The notes below the pieces were generated by a model. The model did not search any database, was not told where the DNA came from, and saw only the letters and a program-made list of their open reading frames with translations. DNA of 36,653 nt from Verrucomicrobiota bacterium (GTDB taxonomy: Bacteria; Verrucomicrobiota; Verrucomicrobiia; Limisphaerales; Fontisphaeraceae), in assembly GCA_037139415.1 (NCBI GenBank), contig JBAXGN010000066.1:1-36653 (forward strand), given 5' to 3'. Position numbers and translations under genes: made by a program. The first letter of the stretch is position 1. Every line of letters begins with the position of its first letter. Positions 1-10,663 of this stretch are shown here, one piece after another.

Positions 1-44
1 TTTCTTATCCTCTCAGCTATCTTTGACCACTTACACGAAAATAT

Positions 45-425
45 CTAAACCTCCGCTTTTGGAATTGGTAGTGAGAAAAATGTCTTCACATCACGTTTCA
101 ATCCTTCTTGTTTCGTTAGTAGTTCATCCTCAAGTGCTTCATGCACACCGCTTGTATGTGAAATGACCATGTTAACGAATAGTTCCTCTACCGGAGTGAT
201 CGGCTGTTTGAAAATATCTGCTTTGGGGTCAATAATCCGGACGAGTTCCGGGTGACTGAAGAGTTTTTGCCAGAGTTCGCGGTGATTGGCAGTGATGGCT
301 AGAAGATTGGCAATGCGCCTGGTCTTGGTTTCCGAATGCAGGGCGAAAGCCGTAAAGAGCAGGCTGGCAATGATGCCACCTGTGCTAATGAGGTTGAACC
401 AATTTTCGACAAGCCATTGTCCCAT
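45..425 (-). CDS. Small membrane-anchored hypothetical protein
   Basis: A 126-residue protein. Residues ~8-30 form one hydrophobic segment (around NLISTGGIIASLLFTAFAL). A charged, mostly helical cytoplasmic part follows, with the stretch ANHRELWQKLF and the acidic patch EALEDEL. It ends with FFSLPIPKAEV. The layout of one N-terminal membrane helix and a soluble tail resembles a family of small conserved hypotheticals found in accessory DNA; I know no function for it. The gene lies on the same strand as the 82-residue gene at 459-704, 33 bp away, so the two may be cotranscribed. The C-terminus is abrupt and could be a truncation; I could not confirm this because the window ends 44 bases further on. 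Confidence 0.6.
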   Translation of the reverse strand: MGQWLVENWFNLISTGGIIASLLFTAFALHSETKTRRIANLLAITANHRELWQKLFSHPELVRIIDPKADIFKQPITPVEELFVNMVISHTSGVHEALEDELLTKQEGLKRDVKTFFSLPIPKAEV

Positions 426-458
426 GTCCCCATTGTATCATGATGGGGACAAAAGACG

Positions 459-704
459 CTAGAGCCGGTCGGGGATATCCCGCTTGGCATTCACGAGCAA
501 GTTGCGCGGCAGGCGGACAATCTTTTCATCCGGCCCGCAACCGGCCGTTTTTGGCAGAAGCGGAGTGGCATCAGCAGTAATGTCGATACCGATTACGGCA
601 AAATCACCATTGTCGAGTTCCCAAATATCCGGGCAGCCATAGCAGCCAACGGTTCGGGCTCCATTAGCGTGCGGGTCAGGGCCAATACGTTTTATGAATT
701 TCAT
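459..704 (-). CDS. Conserved hypothetical protein, 82 residues, Cys-containing
   Basis: I place the start at the ATG ending at 704 (MKFIKRIG), not at the more upstream in-frame ATG at 740, because the conserved part of the protein begins there. The body contains GCYGCPDIWELDNGDFAVIG, and then AGCGPDEKIVRLPR. I recognise this as a compact protein that recurs in accessory regions of many bacteria without an assigned function. The two Cys in CYGC and the Cys in GCGPDE could bind metal, but that is a guess. It is divergent from the HTH regulator at 766, with 61 bp between the two starts. Its neighbours (HTH proteins, serine recombinase) suggest it belongs to a mobile or accessory module. Confidence 0.75.
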   Translation of the reverse strand: MKFIKRIGPDPHANGARTVGCYGCPDIWELDNGDFAVIGIDITADATPLLPKTAGCGPDEKIVRLPRNLLVNAKRDIPDRL

Positions 705-714
705 ATGCCCAATA

Positions 715-773
715 CTTGACAATAGCAAAGTAACAGTCAAGCCGAATTTTTGATAATTTTTAAGCGTGTCAAG
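715..773. promoter_or_regulatory. Candidate operator region: three GTCAAG half-sites between divergent genes
   Basis: Between the start at 704 (minus) and the HTH gene at 766 (plus), CTTGAC at 715-720 and GTCAAG at 736-741 form an inverted repeat. A third GTCAAG at 768-773 overlaps the first codons of the HTH gene. Centre-to-centre distances are 21 and 32 bp, close to two and three helical turns. This is what a self-regulating Xre-type repressor site could look like. The -35-like TTGACA at 716-721 overlaps the first half-site. No convincing -10 at normal spacing was found, although GATAAT occurs at 752-757. Function is inferred only. Confidence 0.35.
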
Positions 774-1023
774 TGCTGGCTACTATCAAGCCGTCTGTGC
801 AGAGGTCATACGCCTTTTGCGTGAAGAACGCAAAAAGCGTAAGCTCTCAAATTATGCCGTCGCACAAAAGTCCGGTGTATCTGAATCCATGTTGAGCTTG
901 GTGGAACGAGGGTTTCGCAATCCATCCATGGAACTCATGCTGAAAATTGCTGATGGGGCTGGCGCTGATCTTCCCGCCTTAATTAAAAAAGCGCAGGCAA
1001 CCATTTCAAAATTGGGAAGGTAG
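766..1023 (+). CDS. Xre-family HTH transcriptional regulator
   Basis: An 85-residue protein that is almost entirely one HTH_3 (Cro/CI-type) domain. Residues ~12-70 read VIRLLREERKKRKLSNYAVA, then KSGVSESMLSLVERG and NPSMELMLKIADG, the usual five-helix layout with the recognition helix around SESMLSLVERG. The start is a GTG at 766; no ATG is available before the domain, and no Shine-Dalgarno sequence is visible. It diverges from the small gene ending at 704 and converges with another small HTH gene at 1025-1264, leaving one base between the two stops. It likely acts as a local repressor for this accessory block and its own promoter; the GTCAAG half-sites in front of it are candidate targets. 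Confidence 0.85.
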   Translation: MSSAGYYQAVCAEVIRLLREERKKRKLSNYAVAQKSGVSESMLSLVERGFRNPSMELMLKIADGAGADLPALIKKAQATISKLGR

Positions 1024-1024
1024 T

Positions 1025-1264
1025 TCACGGCTTCGTTTCGATTTGATACAACGGGCCGGAAATCTTGGAAGACGAGCATTTCTCGATGATTTTGATTCGT
1101 AGTTTCGTGAGACTCATATCAGCGTATTCCTCAGCTTGATGAATCGTACCTCTTGTAACATTTAATTGCCGCGCTATTTCTGCTTTTGATAAATGGGCAT
1201 GCTGTCGTGCTGCCTTCGCCAGGCTCGCCAGTTCACCCTCTCCCACCAATCGCTTTTGTTGCAT
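1025..1264 (-). CDS. Small HTH DNA-binding protein
   Basis: A 79-residue protein. Residues ~10-50 contain LASLAKAARQHAHLSKAEIA followed by RQLNVTRGTIHQAEEYADMS, a clear helix-turn-helix in which LSKAEIARQLNVTRGTIHQAE is the HTH core. The remaining ~30 residues (TKLRIKIIEKC and onward) may aid dimerisation. It is convergent with the Xre gene at 766-1023 and divergent from the serine recombinase, so it could regulate the recombinase promoter in the 84-bp gap at 1265-1348. Nothing identifies its ligand or targets. Confidence 0.7.
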   Translation of the reverse strand: MQQKRLVGEGELASLAKAARQHAHLSKAEIARQLNVTRGTIHQAEEYADMSLTKLRIKIIEKCSSSKISGPLYQIETKP

Positions 1265-1348
1265 GCCGGGATACCATCACAAAGATTAGCAAAAAGACAT
1301 ACTTTTTTCTTGCAGCCGAATGGCATTTCCGATATGAAGTAGTGGTAT

Positions 1349-2839
1349 ATGAAGGAAAATTGTGTCTTGAACAAACCGGTCGGTATTTGGATTCGGGTTT
1401 CCACCGAAGACCAGGCGCAAGGTGACAGTCCAGAACACCACGAAGAGCGCGCTCGCAGCTATGCCAAAAGCCGGGGCTGGCAGGTCAAAGAAGTATATGA
1501 TCTTGCCGGGCAAAGTGGCAAAGCGGTGATGCAACATCCGGAAGCCAAGCGCATGATGAAGGATATTGAACGAGGACATATCACTGGCTTGGTTTTCTCC
1601 AAACTCGCCCGATTGTCCAGAAACCGCCGAGAACTAGAAGACTTTGCCGACTATTTTAACAAACACCAAGCCGACCTCATTTCCTTGAGTGAAGCGATTG
1701 ATACGAGCACTGCCGGTGGCCGGATGTTCTTCCATCTGCTTGGAGTGTTTGCCCAATGGGAACGGGAGGAAATCACCGAACGTATTAACGCATCCGTCCT
1801 TACCCGTGCCAAGCTTGGCAAATCCATCAATGGCAGTGTCCCGTATGGGTACCAGTGGAAAGACCGCAAGTTAGTCATCCAACCCGAAGAAGCCGCCATT
1901 CGTGCCAAGGCATATAATTTATTTTTGGAATGCCGACGCAAGGGCCAGGTTGCCGGATTCTTGAATGACGCCGGGTATCGCACCCGCAACGGCAGTATCT
2001 GGCGCGATACTTCGATTGTTCGTATTCTTGAAGAATCAAGTGCCAAAGGTGTGTATATTTTCAACACAGTAAGGCACACCGGATCATGGCGATATGCACC
2101 CAAGCCAGAAAGTGAATGGGGTAAAATTGCCTGTGAACCCATTGTATCAGAAGAACTTTGGAATCAGGTGAACGAGATTATTGAGGAGCAATTGAAGGCA
2201 TGGAAGAAGCCTGGCAAACCGCCAGTACATTTGTTCAGTGGTTTAACCTTTTGTTCCTGTGGTGCCAAAATGTATGTGCGTGCTGATAACACAAAATACT
2301 TTTGTCGAAAATGCTGTAACAAGATTCCCATCATGGACTTAGAGAATATTGCCAAACAGGAATTGGAGGTATTTTTCGGTCAACCGGAACGCATTGCCGG
2401 ACATTTGCTGGCAGCGAATAAAAACCTAGCTGAGAAGTCCGCACTGCTTGATACCCACCAGCGGGAAATCCAAAAGGTACGTGATGAAATGAAGCAGACC
2501 CACCGATTGTATCTCGATGGTCAAATCACTTCCCAAGGATTTGGTGACTTCTACAAACCTGCCGAAGTACGACTGAACCAACTCATGGCCGAACTACCCA
2601 AGCTTGAAGCTGACGTGGATTTTGTGAAGGTGAATAAACTGTCCGCCGATGATATATTACATGAAGCTGAAACTTTATATGAACGCTGGCCAAAACTACC
2701 ATTCCAAGACAAGCGAAAGATCGTTGAATCACTCATTGAAAAGATCACGATTGGCGATGGTGAAATCGACATATCCCTTTCACACTTACCTACTTCTGAA
2801 GAACTGTGCAAAAACCAACAAAGCTTAGGAACGAGGTGA
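1349..2839 (+). CDS. Large serine recombinase (site-specific integrase/resolvase family)
   Basis: A 496-residue protein with the full large-serine-recombinase layout. The resolvase catalytic domain spans ~10-150, with the nucleophile Ser18 in IRVSTEDQ, and SKLARLSRNRRELEDF at 85-100 matching the conserved Arg cluster. A recombinase domain follows at ~165-285 (GSVPYGYQW, RNGSIWRDTSIVRIL). A zinc beta-ribbon has C302/C304 and C319/C322. A coiled coil lies at ~350-440. Such proteins cut and rejoin DNA at short att sites and mobilise islands or phages. The start at 1349 has no Shine-Dalgarno; TTG at 1367, preceded by AAGGA, is a possible alternative. The last two codons and the stop lie inside the first copy of the repeat array (2833 onward), so the natural C-terminus may have been altered by repeat insertion. 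Confidence 0.92.
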   Translation: MKENCVLNKPVGIWIRVSTEDQAQGDSPEHHEERARSYAKSRGWQVKEVYDLAGQSGKAVMQHPEAKRMMKDIERGHITGLVFSKLARLSRNRRELEDFADYFNKHQADLISLSEAIDTSTAGGRMFFHLLGVFAQWEREEITERINASVLTRAKLGKSINGSVPYGYQWKDRKLVIQPEEAAIRAKAYNLFLECRRKGQVAGFLNDAGYRTRNGSIWRDTSIVRILEESSAKGVYIFNTVRHTGSWRYAPKPESEWGKIACEPIVSEELWNQVNEIIEEQLKAWKKPGKPPVHLFSGLTFCSCGAKMYVRADNTKYFCRKCCNKIPIMDLENIAKQELEVFFGQPERIAGHLLAANKNLAEKSALLDTHQREIQKVRDEMKQTHRLYLDGQITSQGFGDFYKPAEVRLNQLMAELPKLEADVDFVKVNKLSADDILHEAETLYERWPKLPFQDKRKIVESLIEKITIGDGEIDISLSHLPTSEELCKNQQSLGTR

Positions 2840-2938
2840 GGGGGTATGCAACTCCGGGAATCTCCCCATTGTCAGAATCCCCCGCACCATCATAATTAGC
2901 CGCGCAATCTTGACCGTTGGGAGCAGTATTCAGTTCCG

Positions 2939-3141
2939 TACCCCCTCACCCTAGCCCGCTCCCTTGGGGGAGAGGGAATGCCGCGCGCGGCGCATTGGCA
3001 TTCCCAATGTCACTCGTGCGCTCTCGCCATGGACGGATTCTGCGCCGGACGCCAAAGCCCCCGCAGACAGCCCATAATCCGCTCCCTCAGCCGCAGAACA
3101 GACCTCCTCTCCCCGAGGGAGAGGAAAGAGGTGAGGGGGTA
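2939..3141. repeat. MITE-like module 1 with 12-bp terminal inverted repeats
   Basis: The left end TACCCCCTCACC (2939-2950) is the exact reverse complement of the right end GGTGAGGGGGTA (3130-3141). Next to each end are GC-rich palindromes built from CTCCC/GGGAG. There is no coding capacity for a transposase. The sister module is 3234-3434, and an isolated right end lies at 2835-2846 over the recombinase stop codon. No target-site duplication was recognised. Confidence 0.6.
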
Positions 3142-3233
3142 TGCAACTCCGGGAATCTCCCCGCTGTCAGAATCCCCCGCACCATCCTATTTAGCCGTGC
3201 AATCTAAACCGTCGGGAGCAGTATTCAGTTCTG

Positions 3234-3434
3234 TACCCCCTCACCCTAACCCTCTCCCTTTGGGAGAGGGAATGCCGCGCGCGGCGCATTGGTATTCCCA
3301 ATGTCACTCGTGCGCTCCCGCCGCTGACGGATTCTGCGCCGGACGCCAAAGCCCTGCAAGCAACCCATAATCTCCTCCCGCAGCCGCAGAACAGACCTCC
3401 TCTCCCCAAGGGAGAGGAAAGAGGTGAGGGGGTA
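3234..3434. repeat. MITE-like module 2 with 12-bp terminal inverted repeats
   Basis: Second copy of the palindromic module: TACCCCCTCACC at 3234-3245 and its complement at 3423-3434, 201 bp in total. It keeps the central GCCGCGCGCGGCGCATTGG tract seen in module 1. It differs from module 1 by scattered substitutions, for example in the CCGCTGACGG tract, so the duplication is not recent enough to be identical. Confidence 0.6.
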
Positions 3435-3570
3435 TGCAACTCCGGGAATCTCCCCGCTGTCGAAATCCCCCGCGCCAACTTATTATTACTTTCCTGCATT
3501 ATTTTATTGCACCCCGCCGCCGACCTGATTAGCTTCCCTTCCGCCAGCACGCACACAGAGAAGGAACGAC

Positions 3571-4311
3571 ATGGATCGTTACGGGCAAATGGTTGCGGTA
3601 TCGGGTATCATTCCGACCGGACAACAGGACGCGCTAACCAGCGCGAGCCCCGCCATTTCCCCCGCCCCCGCCCAAACCGTGGCGCGCCTAATCGGCGTAT
3701 CTGACACGACCACCCTCCCCGGCGAATCATTCCCCGGCCTGGGGCGGGTTTTGCCCGGATCGGGGGAGGTTTCCACCGGGGCGGGGCAGGTTCCGCCCGT
3801 ACCGGGGGGATTTTCCCCCGGACCGGGGCGATGTTCCCTCGGACCCGCAGAGGTTCCCCCACGGTCCGCGAGGGTTCTGCCCGTGGCGGGGGGAAGTTCC
3901 CCCGTACCGGGGCGAGGTTCCCCCGGACCAACAGAGGTTCCCCCCCGGTCGGCGAGGGTTCCGCCCGTGGCGGGGGGATTTTCCCCCGTACCGGGGCGGA
4001 GTTCACCGGTAGGCGGTCGGGTTTCGCCGGAGGCGGGGGGATTTCCCCCCCACGCCTCAAAAACGCCCATTTCCTGTAATTTACGTCAAAAACTGGCCCA
4101 AAAGGCCCCGCCCGGCAGGTTTTGCCCGGCCAAATCACCAAAAAACCGCCATTATGAGAAATCTCTATTGGAATTCCGGGAATCCCGAAGATGTTTGGGG
4201 GAACCCCAACCTTCGCTGGGGCAGCCCGTCCTACGTACTGGAGCCAGGCGATCCTGGCTATATCCCTTTTCCTCCCGTCCCACCTGCAACCATAACCCCA
4301 TCAAAACATAA
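3571..4311 (+). CDS. Low-complexity Pro/Gly-rich ORF carrying a heptapeptide minisatellite
   Basis: The ATG at 3571 has a good Shine-Dalgarno (AAGGA at 3561-3565, spacing 5). Residues 1-53 (MDRYGQMVAVSGIIPTGQQD and onward) look like ordinary protein. Residues 54-158 are fifteen 7-residue units such as FPGLGRV, SPGPGRC, PPRSARV and SPVPGRS, encoded by a 21-bp minisatellite. After the repeats the frame continues for ~85 residues and overlaps the first 158 bases of the next gene in another frame. The normal start and ribosome site favour expression of at least the N-terminal part. The long overlap suggests the true protein is shorter, is joined to the next gene through a shift within the repeats, or is not translated past them. 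Function unknown. Confidence 0.4.
   Translation: MDRYGQMVAVSGIIPTGQQDALTSASPAISPAPAQTVARLIGVSDTTTLPGESFPGLGRVLPGSGEVSTGAGQVPPVPGGFSPGPGRCSLGPAEVPPRSARVLPVAGGSSPVPGRGSPGPTEVPPRSARVPPVAGGFSPVPGRSSPVGGRVSPEAGGFPPHASKTPISCNLRQKLAQKAPPGRFCPAKSPKNRHYEKSLLEFRESRRCLGEPQPSLGQPVLRTGARRSWLYPFSSRPTCNHNPIKT
3730..4044. repeat. 21-bp minisatellite (15 units) with 84-bp higher-order period
   Basis: In the +1 frame from 3571, units of 21 bp run from 3730 to 4044: FPGLGRV, LPGSGEV, STGAGQV, PPVPGGF, SPGPGRC, SLGPAEV, PPRSARV, LPVAGGS, SPVPGRG, SPGPTEV, PPRSARV, PPVAGGF, SPVPGRS, SPVGGRV, SPEAGGF. Blocks of four units repeat: 3814-3897 matches 3898-3981. The DNA alternates C-runs and G-runs (TTCCCCCG, ACCGGGGCG), so every unit can fold on itself and most frames on both strands stay open. 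No other part of the window has this pattern. Confidence 0.9.
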
Positions 4312-5014
4312 AAAGCATATGCAAAAGCATAGTTATATCAAAGAACCCGATCTGGAGTTCGTGCAGCAACTCCTGACGTTCTCAACCAACGCTCCCAAAT
4401 ACATGACGATTCTGGGCTTGACCCAGGATCAACTCACCGCCCAGACCAATGATGCCAAGTACATGGAATACCTCATGACTTGCCTGGACATCTCCCATAA
4501 TAACTCCAAGAAATGGACGAGTGTCAAAGACATCATGCGTGACGGCGGCGTCATGCCCGCAGCCGGTTTGCCGCTCACGCTCACCTTCCCCACCCCCGTC
4601 CCGCCGGTGGACGCGGACATCGAGGGGCGTTTCCGTGACTTGGTTAAAGATATCAAAAAACACCCCAATTACAATGAGGCCATCGGCAAGGAACTGGGCA
4701 TTGAAGGCATTGAAGTCACCCCACCCGATTACAACACCCTGCAACCGGATCTCAAACTGGACCTGCGCAACAACGGCGTGTATATCCACTGGAACTTTGG
4801 CCATTACCGCTTGTTCCTGGACCAATGCAAAATCGTCGTGGACCGTGGCGACGGCAAAGGCGAAGTCCTGCTGGCCATGGATAGCACCCCCAATTATCTG
4901 GACACCACGCCGTTCCCCAGCGCCGCCGCCAAGTGGACCTACCGCGCCGTCTATATGTACAAAGACCAGCAAGTCGGCCAATGGAGCAAGCCCGTCACCA
5001 TCAACGTGGGCTAA
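4154..5014 (+). CDS. Conserved hypothetical protein, Verrucomicrobia-type, possible Fn3-like C-terminus
   Basis: A 286-residue protein without a signal peptide. The N-terminus is rich in Trp, Asn and Pro (MRNLYWNSGNPEDVWGNPNL). The middle is helical (~55-165), with FSTNAPKYMTILGLTQDQL and the stretch RFRDLVKDIKKHPNYNEAIG. The last ~90 residues alternate in a beta pattern (NGVYIHWNFGHYRLFLDQC, KWTYRAVYMYKDQQVGQWS), reminiscent of a fibronectin type III or similar sandwich. I recall near-identical N-termini in multi-copy verrucomicrobial hypotheticals but know no function. There is no Shine-Dalgarno at 4154; its 5' end overlaps the repeat-bearing ORF at 3571-4311. A strong hairpin follows at 5048-5073. 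Confidence 0.75.
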   Translation: MRNLYWNSGNPEDVWGNPNLRWGSPSYVLEPGDPGYIPFPPVPPATITPSKHKKHMQKHSYIKEPDLEFVQQLLTFSTNAPKYMTILGLTQDQLTAQTNDAKYMEYLMTCLDISHNNSKKWTSVKDIMRDGGVMPAAGLPLTLTFPTPVPPVDADIEGRFRDLVKDIKKHPNYNEAIGKELGIEGIEVTPPDYNTLQPDLKLDLRNNGVYIHWNFGHYRLFLDQCKIVVDRGDGKGEVLLAMDSTPNYLDTTPFPSAAAKWTYRAVYMYKDQQVGQWSKPVTINVG

Positions 5015-5047
5015 GCCGGGGAAAAAACCGCTCGACAACCACCCACT

Positions 5048-5073
5048 GCCGCGCTTCTATTAAGAAGCGCGGC
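5048..5073 (+). terminator. Strong stem-loop downstream of the 4154-5014 gene
   Basis: GCCGCGCTTCT, loop ATTA, AGAAGCGCGGC gives an 11-bp perfect stem 33 bases after the stop codon. There is no following T-run, so intrinsic termination would be weak by E. coli rules, but the position suggests 3'-end formation or mRNA stabilisation. Its presence argues against translation starting at the GTG at 5075. Confidence 0.6.
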
Positions 5074-5101
5074 GGTGGCCGTGAAAATTCATATTACTAA
5101 A

Positions 5102-5788
5102 ATGAGTGCACAAAATAACGCTGGGGAAGCTGAATTTCCTTTTGATAGACAAACTGTGTTCGATGCGCTTATCAGGGCAATTGCGCTAATTGAGGGAATG
5201 AGCGTTCACTCATCCGACCGTCTTAGCGGCCGAGTTGTTATAAAAACAGGAATGAGTCTTTTCTCCTGGGGTGAAAACATCCCCATAGGACTAACCGAAT
5301 CAGGCCCGAATAGAACAATGGTGCGTGTCTCTTCCGCTCCTAAAGTCGGCAGTTCTATCACTGGTTTTGTTGATGATGGTATCATTGTGGGGGGAGACTT
5401 TGATTTCGGAAAGAATCGAAAGAATATCGAAAAGATTTTTGCCGAACTTTCCCGTGAGCTAAGCAAGTTAACTCCAGTTGCAGAGCCAAAAAAGAAAAAG
5501 TGCCCCTTTTGTGCAGAGTTAGTTCAACAAGAAGCAATCAAGTGCCGATTCTGTGGGAGTGACCTCAAGCAGAAGCCGGAGGAGGAAGTACAATACGCAA
5601 TAGCGGAGGACGGTTCTGTTCCTCCGGTACTCCTTGGGAAGGAGGCATCCACTCCAGTACGTATTGGGAACGAGGTGCATTTTGAGTGCCACACCTGCCA
5701 ACAACCGATTGCAACAGATGTTGAAGCCAGAGGCCAAGAATTTCGTTGTCCAGAGTGCGGCGAAAATCTCGTGGTACCGAGTGTTTAA
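5102..5788 (+). CDS. Double zinc-ribbon protein of unknown function
   Basis: I choose the ATG at 5102 (MSAQNNAGEAEF), giving 228 residues; upstream GTG codons at 5075 and 5081 abut the hairpin at 5048-5073. Residues ~10-125 form an alpha/beta domain (FPFDRQTVFDALIRAIALIE, then GRVVIKTG and FVDDGIIVGGDFDF). A Lys-rich linker precedes a zinc ribbon with CPFC and CRFC. A second ribbon near the C-terminus has CHTC and CPEC. Two four-Cys ribbons point to a structural or protein/nucleic-acid-binding role. Codon use is AT-richer than in the catabolic genes further on, which fits acquired DNA. The next 160 bases to 5950 hold no gene I can support. Confidence 0.75.
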   Translation: MSAQNNAGEAEFPFDRQTVFDALIRAIALIEGMSVHSSDRLSGRVVIKTGMSLFSWGENIPIGLTESGPNRTMVRVSSAPKVGSSITGFVDDGIIVGGDFDFGKNRKNIEKIFAELSRELSKLTPVAEPKKKKCPFCAELVQQEAIKCRFCGSDLKQKPEEEVQYAIAEDGSVPPVLLGKEASTPVRIGNEVHFECHTCQQPIATDVEARGQEFRCPECGENLVVPSV

Positions 5789-5950
5789 AAATCTTGTCTT
5801 GAAACCGTGCAATTCATTAACAGAGCACGCGTTTTTCCCAATGCCACGAGTGGCCTTTTTCTGGATGGTCGACACCATGAAAATCAACCGGCCACCGGAA
5901 ACAACGAACAAAAATTAGTTCAATAATACTGTAATGCTACTCACACGCAC

Positions 5951-6280
5951 ATGGATACGAAACATGCAAAAGAGCTGATACTAACTGGCCTAGGAACACT
6001 ACTGGCAGCATTAGTGGTCGGCAGATTAACAGCGCATGGTGATGTGAGCATGCCAAAGTCAGTCCTAAGCGGCGGAGGAATGCTGGTTCTCGGTGTTCTT
6101 TCGTACACATTCGTTTTGTGGCGTCGCGACCAGCACAGAGAGCGCATCAGATTCGCAGAGGAGCATGAATGGCTTGTTTGCCATTGCACCCAGGAGGGGA
6201 CGATTTGCGTTATGAAGTACACAAAAGAGGGGCCAGGGTATCACCACTGTCCAGCCTGTAAAAATGACTATCCGGCCTAA
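5951..6280 (+). CDS. Small two-helix membrane protein with C-terminal zinc-ribbon-like Cys cluster
   Basis: A 109-residue protein. Membrane segments lie at ~9-29 (LILTGLGTLLAALVVGRL) and ~37-57 (VLSGGGMLVLGVLSYTFVLW). A basic loop follows (RRDQHRERIRF), then a cytoplasmic tail with CHC at 77-79, C86 and CPAC at 100-103, which could bind zinc. There is no Shine-Dalgarno before the ATG at 5951. The stop codon TAA lies inside GCCTAAC, the left core of a candidate attC site, as is usual for integron cassette genes. Function unknown; the layout is typical of orphan cassette proteins. Confidence 0.7.
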   Translation: MDTKHAKELILTGLGTLLAALVVGRLTAHGDVSMPKSVLSGGGMLVLGVLSYTFVLWRRDQHRERIRFAEEHEWLVCHCTQEGTICVMKYTKEGPGYHHCPACKNDYPA

Positions 6281-6341
6281 CGAGTTGTGGCCTCCGACGC
6301 TAAGAGTCAGTGATCCGGTGTGGCTGCGCTCGGCGTTAGCA
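6275..6341 (+). other. Candidate integron attC-like recombination site
   Basis: GCCTAAC (6275-6281) matches the consensus RYYYAAC core, and GTTAGCA (6335-6341) resembles the partner core GTTRRRY but mismatches at one or two final bases. CTAACG and CGTTAG at the ends pair perfectly. The total of 67 bp and the stop codon of the preceding small gene embedded in the left core are typical of attC sites. The inner L-box pairing is only partial, no integron integrase gene is in the window, and no second attC was found upstream of 5951. It may instead be a genomic palindromic repeat. Confidence 0.4.
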
Positions 6342-6413
6342 ATCCAAAACGAAAACGGGGTCATTCAATAACCAAACCACCGGCGTCTTATTCGTTTAGC
6401 CGCTGGGCGATGG

Positions 6414-7646
6414 TTATTTCAAGGCATCCTTGCCATCGGTGAGCCATTCGAGGTTGAAGCGGGCGAGGGTGAGGCGGTCCCCGGCGAAGCCGGACTTTTC
6501 ACCGCGTCCGTAAAAGCAAAGGATGGTGCCGCGTTGGGTGACGGCAATATCACTGTAGCAACTCCAGCCCGGCTCGATGGGTTTGGAGATGACCCAGGTC
6601 CGGCCTTCATCGTAGCTGAGTTTGACCGTGAGGTTCTTGCGGTCGCGGCTTTTGCCGGGGGCCTCTTTGCCATCGGCGCGGGTGAGGTTGTCCGGGTTGC
6701 AGAAGAGGATGCGGTGCTTGCCGCCCGCCGGCGCGGTGGAAAGGCGGATGATGCCGCCCATGCAGATGGGTTCCACCAGGGCGTCATCGAACTTGGGCGC
6801 GGTCCAGCCGGTGGCGCCATCCGGGCTAAAGGTGATCAGGCGGCGGTGTACCTTGGATTCGCTGCGCGCATTGAGCATCACCCGGCCATCGGCCAGTTCC
6901 AGGGCGACGGTTTCATTGGGGTTGATCCATTCTTCCGTGCAGGGCAAGGCGATGTCCCCGGCCTGCCAGGTGCGCCCGCCGTCATCACTGTAAATGGTGG
7001 CGGTGACGGATGGCCGGTGGGCGTTGCCGCCGGTGCCGGTGGAGAGCCACACGGGGACGATCAAGCGTCCGCTGCGAAGCTGAATGCTATGATTGGGGCC
7101 GGTGGCGAGGACTTTCCAATCGTACGCGGGCCGGAATTTCTCGAAGGCGCTGGTGATCTCCATCGGGGCGGACCAACTCACGCCGTCATCCGTGCTGCGC
7201 TGGTAGAAGCAGCGCAGGTATTCGAGGCAGAACAGCATGTGGACCGTGCCATCGCGGTCGGCGATGACGACGGGGTTGTCATAGGTGACATCCTCGGGAT
7301 TCACGAACTTCAACTTGAGCGCGACGGGGTTTTTGGGCTTTGGCCCCGGCACATCGGCGACGCGTTTGGGCTCGCTCCAGGTCAGGCCATCATCGGTGGA
7401 ACGGCGCATGAGGATGTCAATGGTATCCCAGTCATGATTCTTTTTGCGCGCTTCATACCAGGCCAGCACCGTGCCTTTGGCGGTGACGACAATGCCGGGA
7501 ATATGGTTCTGCGCGTAACCGCCATCGCCGCTTTTGCAGAGGTCCGTTTTATCCAGGAACGGCTTGGCCCCAAGCGCGGTGGCCGGGGGAAGCACGGTGA
7601 AGGTAAACAGGCCAATCATGGCCATGAGGAATTTGCGTTGATACAT
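6414..7646 (-). CDS. Secreted sialidase-fold (GH33-like) exo-glycosidase
   Basis: The start is the ATG ending at 7646: MYQRKFLMAMIGLFTFTVLP opens a signal peptide, and the gene then lies 29 bases after the GH106 stop. Further upstream starts would overlap that gene. The 410-residue product is a six-bladed propeller with Asp boxes STDDGLTW (83-90), STDDGVSW (151-158), SDDGGRTW (220-227) and a degenerate SPDGATGW (274-281). Retained are the candidate Glu in NET (246), Arg in NARS (261), Arg337 and a Tyr in YSDIA (364). The usual first Arg motif (RIP) reads HIP (48-50), so the carboxylate-binding triad is incomplete and the substrate may not be ordinary sialic acid. It is the last gene of the FAD oxidoreductase-GH106 operon. 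Confidence 0.85.
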   Translation of the reverse strand: MYQRKFLMAMIGLFTFTVLPPATALGAKPFLDKTDLCKSGDGGYAQNHIPGIVVTAKGTVLAWYEARKKNHDWDTIDILMRRSTDDGLTWSEPKRVADVPGPKPKNPVALKLKFVNPEDVTYDNPVVIADRDGTVHMLFCLEYLRCFYQRSTDDGVSWSAPMEITSAFEKFRPAYDWKVLATGPNHSIQLRSGRLIVPVWLSTGTGGNAHRPSVTATIYSDDGGRTWQAGDIALPCTEEWINPNETVALELADGRVMLNARSESKVHRRLITFSPDGATGWTAPKFDDALVEPICMGGIIRLSTAPAGGKHRILFCNPDNLTRADGKEAPGKSRDRKNLTVKLSYDEGRTWVISKPIEPGWSCYSDIAVTQRGTILCFYGRGEKSGFAGDRLTLARFNLEWLTDGKDALK

Positions 7647-7675
7647 AGGTTTGTACGGTTTGTCTTGGTTCACAA

Positions 7676-10663
7676 TTACGGTTGCTTGATCTCCATCGCC
7701 TGAAGGGTCACTGGGCCGAGCAGGCCGGATTCCAGCAAGGGCATGTTTTTCTTGAACGGGTTCCAGGTGGCGAAGGCGTAACGCTTTTCCGGCGGCAGGG
7801 ATTGGTCGCCGATCAGGCGGTTCGGCCAGAGATTGGCCACGGCGATTTCCAACTGATTCGCCTTGGCCTTCGCGGCGCTGGTGATTTCCACCCGCCATGG
7901 GGCGCACCAGGCAACCCCGAGATCGCGCCCGTTAAGCCGCACGCGGGCCATGTTTTTCACTAACCCAAGATCGAGATAGATGCGCTGGCCGCGCGGGACC
8001 TGCGGCAGGTCAAAGGTCTGGCGATAGGTGGCCGTGCCGGAATAAAAGCGGATGCCTTCTTCGGGACGTTTGCTCCAGTCTTCCAGCGATGGAAAGGTGA
8101 TCTGATCCGGCCCGCCCCATTTGGGATCGAATGCCACCTCCCAAGGGCCGGTCAACTCGGTGATTTTGGCGAAGTCGCAAAAGTTCGGCCCGCGGGTTTT
8201 GCCCGGCGTGGACGTCTTTCGGAAAACGATGAAGCCGGATTCGTTCGGTTCAAACCGCATGGGCACAGTGGTGCGCCCGTCTTTGACAAAGTATTCCGGC
8301 AGATCGGAAATATCGCCGATCAGTGGATTCCAGAGTTCCGGCGCTTTTCCCGAAACCCGGAAGGTGCAATGGCCGCGGATCGTTTCGCTGGTCGCATTGG
8401 CCACAAAGTAAATCTCCGCCTCCCCGGTGCTCCGATGCGTATAGCGGAGCGGCAACTCCGATTGAAAGTCAGGCGGCACGCCCATCTTCTTCAAAAGATC
8501 GGCCACCACGGTGTAATCGCCGTACTGCTCGGGATTGGCGGGCGGTTTGCTGTGATTCGACTGCGAAAGCGGATCGCCCGATTCTTTTTCAGTTTGTGCT
8601 GTGGCATCCCGGATCACCCGTCCTCGTCCCACTGGGTGCTCCATTCCAGGCTGGCCGTTGCTGTTTCCCCAAAGCGCATCGGCCAGTAGCTTCACCTCAT
8701 CATCACACTGCGGATAACCGCTGAGACTGGGTGACTTCAGCGGTGGTGCCCCAATGATGGTGGCTCCGGCCTCGGCGAGTTCCTTCACCTTGCGAAGCAA
8801 GGCCGGAGTCATGGTTGGATTATTGGGCAACACCAGGACCTGGTAACTCATGCCGTCCGGCAGCACCAGCCGCCCGTTATTTACCGAGACCCGGGAAATC
8901 AAGGTTTCGGGCGCACAACCGTCAAAGTTGTAGCCGCGCCGATCCGGCAATTCGCCACTCAGGGCCGACTTGGGTGGCAGGAACACGTGCGGCGCACCCT
9001 CTGCCGCCAGATAAAGAATATCCGCGACAGGCAGGCCGTGTTGAAGCAGCGTCTGGCAGCGGGCCAGGTAGGCGTGATACGCGGGAACCATGTCCCACCA
9101 GGTTTGCGTGCGTTCCCAGTGGACGCCGTAAGGCCCCATCGTCATGCCGGGCTTGCGATCCGCCCAGGGCTGATGTTGAAAACGGTGAAACACAATCCGG
9201 TTGATGCCCGCGCAAAACGCCCAATCACCCTGCGATTTCATTGCGCCGGGATATTGTTGCCAGCGCTCGCTGGAACCGGAGGTAAACGCTTCGGCTGCGA
9301 TGATCGGGCGTCCCATGACGTGTCCAATGGAAACCGATTCAATGCAACTGAACTCGGATTTGAAGCCATAGCCTTTGGACCAGAATTCGCACATGGGCAC
9401 ATCCGCCACGCTGCCCAGACTCAGATCCCCGGCGGGGTTCATATCATAGGGTTCAATGGAAAGGCCCATTCCATTGCGGTGTGCCAGGTCTTTGAGGTGT
9501 TGCGCATGGTTTTCCACGGCCAATTCCTGCGCGGTGCGGCGCAGATCCCAGAGAAAGCGCTCGGAGATTTCCACGCTATCCACGATGCGCCCGGATAGTG
9601 CGGGCAAGTACCGCAACAGATCGTACCCGCGTCGCTTTTGGAATTCCTCCCGCATTCTGCCGGTCCAATTCTGCGAACTCATCTCCCAGCTATCAATGTG
9701 CAGCATCGTCCAGCCGACCCCCGGCTTGCGGGGACCCACCGCGCGCAAGAGGGGTTCCACGAATGCCGCGAAGTGCGCATCCAATGCCGCCGGATCGAGT
9801 TTGTCGCATTCCAGCCCCAAGCCGGGCTGCGGCGCGGGCCGGGTTCCCTGGCCGGTGCTGGTTTTTCCCAGACGCATGATGGTCCACTGGCCGGGCGGTA
9901 CATCCCATACCAGTCGGCCTTCCGGGGTGAGGCGGGAGGTCAGGTCAAGGATGCCGCTGCTGGCGATGCATTGCTCGACTGGAATCTTCGCGTGTTCAGC
10001 CGGCGCTGCCAGCCATGGTTTGACGCCGGGCTGTGAGGAAAACGGTGCGCGTTGATACAACGCCTTTTCTTCGATGTCCTCGATGCGTTGGTTGCCGGAT
10101 GGAGTGGGAAACGCCAGCACCGCCACGTCCCGGTAAAAGGCTTTGCGCTCTTTTTCAATGTCAGCCGGCAAGTGGCCATCGCCAAAAAACGGACGTCGCG
10201 GCAGCGGGCGGGGCAGGGGCGCATCGAAATGCATGGGACCACTGGCGAGATTGGTTTCTGATGACACCAGATGCTGCATGGATTGTTCGGGCTTGATCCA
10301 GGGACCGCCACTGCCGGTCCAGCCCGGTCCCGCGTTCAGCGTGATTTGTAATCCCAGACGTTCCGCCTCTTTGACCGCATGGCGAAAACACACCTGCCAT
10401 TCCGGGCTCATGAATTTTACCGTGCCACGGGGAATGCCGACGTCCACTTCCATCATGATCACGCCCCCGATGCCGGCTTGTTTCATCGCTTCCAGGTCGG
10501 CGGTCATGCCCTCCTGGCTGAGATTGCCATCCATGAAAAACCAATAGACCCAGGGCCGGGCGGCCGCCGGCGGTTGGGCGAAGTCCTTGGCCAGCTCCGG
10601 TATTCCACCGAAGGCGCAGGCGCAGCCAAGGCACACGGCGAGAAGGGTTCGATAAATCATCAT
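7676..10663 (-). CDS. Secreted GH106-family alpha-L-rhamnosidase-like protein
   Basis: A 995-residue protein with a signal peptide (residues 1-~19, around LLAVCLGCACAFGG). RPWVYWFFMDGNLSQEGMTA followed by LEAMKQAGIGGVIMMEVD and GPGWTGSGGPWI is the opening signature of Glyco_hydro_106. The central barrel contains GWTMLHIDSWEM and AEAFTSGSSERW. A C-terminal beta-sandwich (~870-980; LNGRDLGVAWCAPWRVEI, NQLEIAVANLWPNRLIGD) is like the galactose-binding lobes of GH2/GH106 enzymes. The family hydrolyses terminal alpha-L-rhamnose from plant or algal glycans. It is the second gene in a minus-strand operon, 15 bases after the FAD oxidoreductase and 29 before the sialidase-fold gene. I cannot assign the catalytic acids with certainty by eye. 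Confidence 0.88.
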   Translation of the reverse strand: MMIYRTLLAVCLGCACAFGGIPELAKDFAQPPAAARPWVYWFFMDGNLSQEGMTADLEAMKQAGIGGVIMMEVDVGIPRGTVKFMSPEWQVCFRHAVKEAERLGLQITLNAGPGWTGSGGPWIKPEQSMQHLVSSETNLASGPMHFDAPLPRPLPRRPFFGDGHLPADIEKERKAFYRDVAVLAFPTPSGNQRIEDIEEKALYQRAPFSSQPGVKPWLAAPAEHAKIPVEQCIASSGILDLTSRLTPEGRLVWDVPPGQWTIMRLGKTSTGQGTRPAPQPGLGLECDKLDPAALDAHFAAFVEPLLRAVGPRKPGVGWTMLHIDSWEMSSQNWTGRMREEFQKRRGYDLLRYLPALSGRIVDSVEISERFLWDLRRTAQELAVENHAQHLKDLAHRNGMGLSIEPYDMNPAGDLSLGSVADVPMCEFWSKGYGFKSEFSCIESVSIGHVMGRPIIAAEAFTSGSSERWQQYPGAMKSQGDWAFCAGINRIVFHRFQHQPWADRKPGMTMGPYGVHWERTQTWWDMVPAYHAYLARCQTLLQHGLPVADILYLAAEGAPHVFLPPKSALSGELPDRRGYNFDGCAPETLISRVSVNNGRLVLPDGMSYQVLVLPNNPTMTPALLRKVKELAEAGATIIGAPPLKSPSLSGYPQCDDEVKLLADALWGNSNGQPGMEHPVGRGRVIRDATAQTEKESGDPLSQSNHSKPPANPEQYGDYTVVADLLKKMGVPPDFQSELPLRYTHRSTGEAEIYFVANATSETIRGHCTFRVSGKAPELWNPLIGDISDLPEYFVKDGRTTVPMRFEPNESGFIVFRKTSTPGKTRGPNFCDFAKITELTGPWEVAFDPKWGGPDQITFPSLEDWSKRPEEGIRFYSGTATYRQTFDLPQVPRGQRIYLDLGLVKNMARVRLNGRDLGVAWCAPWRVEITSAAKAKANQLEIAVANLWPNRLIGDQSLPPEKRYAFATWNPFKKNMPLLESGLLGPVTLQAMEIKQP

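Follow-up and report, generated by a model that had tools for sequence, protein, structure and literature searches.

Tandem 21-bp arrays with dyad symmetry before mobile orphan genes in Verrucomicrobiota: possibly a cis element at the level of DNA

Introduction

A tract of short tandem repeats that can be translated in most of its frames and that stands before an orphan gene might act as protein, as RNA or as DNA. The choice also matters for annotation, where tracts open in most frames may be entered as Pro/Gly-rich proteins. The question is raised here by a locus in the window, that is, the 36,653-nucleotide stretch analysed, which is contig C66 of the 7.9-Mb genome (G000, 378 contigs) of a Verrucomicrobiota bacterium. 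The reading that we favour, to which we give slightly less than an even chance, is that the tract is a non-coding DNA-level cis element, a helix-phased array of dyads belonging to a mobile gene module. Three further readings are possible and rank, from the more to the less probable, as a functionless by-product, a translated array and an RNA array.

The Tract and the Gene behind It

The tract (3730–4044, + strand) is 315 bp long and consists of 15 units of 21 bp lying in a single frame of the open reading frame at 3571–4311, as the first-pass annotation had proposed. The 84-bp super-repeat that it had described was recovered by TRF as well (3789–3998, 2.5 copies, 88% matches, score 336), along with periods of 21 and 42 bp; in 100 dinucleotide shuffles of 3571–4150, the best TRF score was 53. 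Neighbouring units share a mean identity of 0.61, and units four places apart one of 0.74. The units are contiguous and so leave none of the unique spacers that separate the repeats of a CRISPR array. It had also been said that heptapeptides repeat exactly in frame, which is mostly not the case: of the three named, only PPRSARV was found twice, while SPVPGRG and PPVAGGF occur once each, with the near copies SPVPGRS, PPVPGGF and LPVAGGS. The statement that most frames stay open on both strands holds for the four of six frames that are stop-free, the other two having one stop each (1, 0, 0 on the + strand and 0, 0, 1 on the − strand).

The array is preceded by a leader (3490–3729, + strand), common by sequence match to contigs C113, C81 and C43, which contains an AGAAGGA motif and the ATG of the 3571 open reading frame. 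It is followed by a tail (4045–4153, + strand) that spans the 109 bp between the end of the array and the start of the orphan gene, P0002, and that alignment also finds on contigs C231 and C194, where array and tail occur without the gene. P0002 (4154–5014, + strand) encodes 286 aa, with a helical region and an FN3-like C-terminal domain. A direct repeat, AAAAAACCG, stands before the gene (4140–4148, + strand) and again after it (5022–5030, + strand), and an inverted repeat read from the sequence as a terminator-like hairpin lies at 5043–5078 (+ strand); comparable hairpins were seen by eye downstream of other copies of the gene.

The C-terminal domain of P0002 (residues 191–286) is predicted to have an FN3 fold, the model matching 8c7m_A with a Z of 11.5 and an rmsd of 2.1 over 92 aligned residues; the mean pLDDT of the whole model is 66.5. 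No informative match to P0002 was found in Pfam, NCBIfam or PHROGs: the weak matches of its family (Pfam, E 0.04; NCBIfam, E 0.012; PDB, E 0.027) and a match to PHROG 18922 (E 0.0053 over 27 residues) were judged uninformative. When viral proteins were searched by fold, two matches reached E ≤ 0.001 and the remainder were mostly FN3-like or weak.

Several observations concern the surroundings of other family members. In L042, L043, L139–L151, L076 and L165, a gene that starts with MSFDPNKPVEGS or MPFDPTKPANNSP, as judged by eye, recurs 3′ of the orphan gene, and in L042 this gene continues into a collagen-like stretch, likewise judged by eye. In L022, a tandem array of 22 bp/44 bp (2438–2724) lies on the downstream rather than the upstream side of a protein that has its N-terminus alone in common with P0002.

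The Array Recurs before the Gene

P0002 has ten further matches in its own genome, partial ones among them. With that genome included in both counts, 57 of the 320 order-level genomes searched with a profile have the family, as do 6 of 387 genomes sampled across the phylum. Its distribution is patchy, often with several copies per genome, and named records with relatives come from Verrucomicrobia(ceae), Spartobacteria, Prosthecobacter, Akkermansia, Chthoniobacteraceae, Phragmitibacter and Lentisphaerae MAGs. Sixty near full-length relatives' loci were taken from the more than 150 order-level matches listed, and 36 of the 51 named loci found were used.

Fifty periods were tried on the 86 of 103 loci with at least 300 bp of upstream sequence; one contig was counted twice among the 86 (L075 and L159 are identical), with no other overlap seen between the two locus sets. 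The best period was 21 or 42 bp in 73 of these upstream regions and the score was strong in 69, against 8 strong 21/42 scores in 980 control segments of the same loci, a control set in which other family members may be included and some regions overlap. TRF alone found an array of the 21-bp class upstream in 34 of the 56 loci having at least 450 bp of upstream sequence; 37 such arrays lay within 500 bp upstream, compared with 12 across the other bins to 10 kb on either side, and the median array extends from −320 to −126 relative to the gene start. A few loci have odd periods (41, 62, 64 or 83 bp), and no array was seen in the upstream region of the divergent-branch loci L130–L132 and L134. 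The unit is nearly always 21 letters long and often mirror-symmetric, with a sequence that varies from place to place.

The same arrangement is found before a second family. Behind another array of the window's genome lies P0004, a different helix-plus-FN3 protein, in which PF00041 falls marginally under the cut-off, passing it in a relative; homology between the P0004 and P0002 families was not detectable (hhalign probability 1.8%). The best period was 21 or 42 bp in 15 of the 22 upstream regions tested from the 27 second-family loci entered.

The link between gene and array holds in one direction, arrays without either family being common in the window's own genome. In 800 kb of it, 11 arrays of the 21-bp class were found (one of them a 126-bp repeat within an open reading frame), as against 5 other tandem arrays; none of the 11 adjoins the first family and one adjoins the second. 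In the one genome sampled for which neither gene family turned up, a member of the same taxonomic family, 400 kb contained none of these arrays and 8 other tandem arrays. In L262 (1483–1917), two adjacent arrays resemble those of contigs C43 and C22, with neither gene family alongside. In G000, the array or leader is found at a contig end, or close to one, on C113, C81, C122, C257 and C43; assemblies therefore probably break there, and the copy counts are likely too low.

Protein, RNA or DNA?

If the array were translated, it would be an upstream open reading frame of heptapeptide repeats in which the sequence is free while the frame is kept open. A period divisible by three would suit this, as would the ATG with AGAAGGA that precedes the array in the window. 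On the gene strand, 63 of 66 arrays across loci are open in one frame or more (57 ± 2.4 expected), and 126 of the 198 frames are stop-free (102 ± 5 expected), the null keeping dinucleotides to within about 5%; the excess on the other strand is not clear (96 against 89 ± 5), whereas under a simpler null it appears on both strands. An in-frame upstream ATG is found on the gene strand in 42 of 59 arrays and on the other strand in 26 of 59. This excess of open frames and ATGs on the gene strand leans towards translation, and the DNA-level reading does not explain it. Against translation, between-unit variation in open frames is not raised at third codon positions (an excess of 0.004 ± 0.031), pN/pS ranges from 0.64 to 1.57 in the open + frames of aligned arrays, and pN is about equal to pS in the leader, where counts are small; selection on the encoded peptide, as expected of a heptapeptide gene, is thus not seen. 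Moreover, starts that have a Shine-Dalgarno-like site show no such excess on the gene strand (4 of 59 arrays on +, 3 of 59 on −), and repeats that are Pro/Gly-rich at one locus are different at the next. A heptapeptide gene was accordingly rejected, or at least weakened, as the main reading on codon-position entropy, pN/pS, starts and the lack of 3-bp indels (see below), and translation in the wider sense is, in our estimate, rather unlikely. That the array is an N-terminal extension of the gene was also weakened or rejected, its open frames showing no preference relative to the frame of the gene.

The units themselves are often palindromic. Among the 66 loci whose array reaches 105 bp or more, dyad symmetry exceeds that of column-shuffled controls (p < 0.05) in 42; in the second family it does so in 12 of 14 arrays. 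It is not significant in the remaining 24 and 2, respectively. Individual dyads are not kept by paired changes, of which 1 in 6 double changes among five homologues would be an instance, so conservation of single dyads was discarded as an explanation and the symmetry belongs to the array as a whole.

Palindromic units, together with the order of repeat array, spacer, gene and terminator, might also indicate an RNA array, that is, transcribed hairpins acting as a structured leader or as a toxin-neutralising repeat RNA of the type III toxin-antitoxin kind. Pairing in RNA would favour G-U over A-C mismatches. At paired positions, G-U mismatches number 178 and A-C mismatches 200 (p 0.28), and with no excess of G-U the hairpin reading is weakened. 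Covariation in the five homologues is scant (a term of −4.3 out of −133), and Rfam gave no match in positions 1–8000 of the window. In ToxIN, the repeats are the RNA antitoxin of an endoribonuclease (PMC8860590). The likeness to the present loci lies in a locus-specific tandem repeat array preceding a gene; the difference is that the arrays here show no RNA-level signal in their mismatches and the gene has no toxin-family match in Pfam, a search of 13 family members at E 0.1 having given no match to a ToxN/AbiQ-type toxin. An RNA array is, on this evidence, improbable.

The equality of G-U and A-C mismatches, together with the absence of a codon-position signal, points to an element that would act at the level of DNA. 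Dyads that recur every 21 bp, i.e., every two turns of the helix, would all present themselves on one face. The fact that the sequence differs from place to place suggests that shape and spacing outweigh the letters, and the array might be recognised by a putative reader protein through its shape, phase and dyads rather than through a fixed sequence. It could then serve as a platform, for binding or for recombination, by which a module made up of the array, a tail of about 100 bp, the orphan helix-plus-FN3 gene and a terminator is controlled or moved; this module is horizontally mobile within Verrucomicrobiota.

How Arrays Vary and Are Kept

From one locus to the next, arrays mostly have unrelated sequences: best similarity averages 0.387 across all pairs of the 66, with higher values only among close relatives. 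With so low a value, the common genome-wide repeat sequence by which REP/BIME elements are recognised is lacking. REPs resemble the present arrays in being short palindromic DNA between genes; they differ in having a family sequence, where the arrays share a period and a symmetry (PMC3733652).

The first-pass annotation had suggested a tract that changes length by slippage and might switch phase. Length does vary: a near-identical copy on contig C113 of the same genome has one extra 21-bp unit compared with C66, so that unit number differs between copies, as in a VNTR, within one genome. Frame switching is another matter, since 21 is a multiple of three and the gain of a unit cannot shift the frame. 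Nor is slippage the mechanism in several pairs in which the entire array has been exchanged for an unrelated one. In L120 and L123, which share a genome, the genes are 92% identical in DNA and the flanks are conserved, while the arrays are unrelated. Nine pairs, chosen after their array similarity was known, were compared: four show a clean swap between conserved flanks (L120/L123, L123/L125, L122/L124 and L158/L164, the last retaining short matches of 35–37 bp), four have alignable arrays (L120/L125, L160/L158, L140/L144 and L163/L139), and the ninth (L162/L166) is neither a clean swap nor clearly alignable.

Among closer copies the picture is one of conservation. In five close homologues, the aligned arrays have no gapped column in 280 bp and are 86% identical, against 80% at third codon positions of the gene (counted without gaps, the gene alignments averaging 13.6 gapped columns) and 73%, with gaps, in the left flank. 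Over the short term, arrays thus appear to be constrained. Changes in unit length are also few: 15,811 bp from 84 loci contained 8 candidates, of which five involve 1 bp, two 2 bp and one 6 bp, with none of 3 bp. The register test behind this count detects an array only if 63 bp or more of it lie at lag 21, and is therefore biased towards a rigid register.

Turnover of this kind could also mean that the array has no function, the copying or insertion of the module leaving an array in 21-bp steps that then decays by point mutation. It would fit this explanation that similar copies differ in their arrays, that some arrays are nearly perfect (L162, L166 and L042) and others degenerate, that individual dyads are not kept and that gene-less arrays exist. 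However, a mere by-product would hardly be gapless and more identical than third codon positions in five homologues, or keep its position before two unrelated gene families. We regard this explanation as unlikely, if less so than the other alternatives.

A bolder possibility is that a dedicated process builds each module its own array of 21-bp dyads, before the gene, at insertion or duplication, with a private sequence and a common shape that a structure-specific protein would read. Such a private array, itself an unlikely proposition at present, would tag each copy and would also amount to a bacterial equivalent of satellite DNA. The arrays connect mobile orphan gene families with the helical phasing of DNA, and dozens of independent ones could be used for testing shape recognition and the birth and decay of arrays.

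Mobility of the Module

The modules are horizontally mobile, being patchy in distribution, multicopy and absent from orthologous places. One module (L124), some 1.75 kb long, is flanked in genome G235 by genes that their translations, judged by eye, mark as gcvP-like and gyrB-like. Among 29 compared loci of the genus, the flanks are at most 70 bp apart in 12, which represent the empty site, about 0.2 kb apart in 1 and 1.2–1.4 kb apart in 2, the gyrB side alone being recovered in 14. For a second module, L117, the site is empty in 2 of the 29 loci. The gene-less copies on C231 and C194 join at, or one base before, the AAAAAACCG repeat that flanks the gene in the window. No target-site duplications were resolved at the insertions.

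Origins from phages or plasmids were considered and set aside: a search of viral contigs (query A2) gave no relative, and one relative's protein, used as a query, found no match in plasmids or phages. In L117, the insertion carries, 3′ of the gene, an inverted pair, GTTAGGCGGCAT ... ATGCCGCCTAAC, that looks attC-like by eye.

Is the Array an Operator?

Some loci encode an XRE-type protein close upstream of the array; this protein would be another candidate for the reader, with the array as its operator. Of the 76 loci with enough sequence (own and other genomes), 26 have a gene of this type immediately upstream of the array and in the same orientation, and 27 of the 29 XRE matches lie on the gene strand within 2.5 kb upstream; over all pairs, XRE identity correlates with array similarity (rho 0.33). 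This correlation can stem from overall relatedness because array similarity also tracks the identity of the gene. Moreover, no XRE gene occupies that place in the other 50 of the 76 loci, 12 pairs with similar arrays have XREs less than 50% identical, and arrays are dissimilar in 9 of the 25 pairs whose XREs reach 70% identity or more; we do not regard the XRE protein as a sequence-specific reader. The operator reading is very improbable.

In the window, a small HTH_3 (XRE-type) gene (757–1020, + strand) lies 3.4 kb from the array, a distance that makes its membership of the module uncertain. It is followed by a serine recombinase with Resolvase and Recombinase domains (1349–2839), also upstream of the module.

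Comparison with Known Repeats

Plasmid iterons are direct repeats about two helical turns apart, with an element-specific sequence, that serve the gene of a replication initiator. The arrays resemble them in all three of the first features, that is, direct repetition, spacing of about two turns and element-specific sequence; they differ in that the P0002 family has no informative Pfam match and hence none to a replication initiator. Integron attC sites are recognised via their folded structure and vary in sequence, a likeness to the structure-based recognition proposed here, but each is a single site, not an array. A further parallel is eukaryotic satellite DNA with dyad symmetry, in which the organisation of units and the dyads outlast the turnover of sequence (PMC9070824, PMC13081366), whereas the present arrays are bacterial, have a 21-bp unit, extend over a few hundred bp and stand before genes. 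Such arrays were not found described in the open-access library searched. None of the bacterial repeat classes compared accommodates an array whose sequence is replaced but whose period, register, symmetry and position are kept across the phylum.

Other Repeats near the Locus

Other kinds of repeats occur in the same genome. A 295-bp tandem repeat (2827–3484, 2.2 copies, 90% matches) with inverted repeats of the GGGAGAGG type lies upstream of the leader in the window, and short stretches resembling it are found on contigs C113, C52 and C328. Tandem repeats of the AATGCGG type, with units of 7 and 14 bp, are scattered over the contigs of G000, as in L028 (784–810) and L041 (1631–1704).
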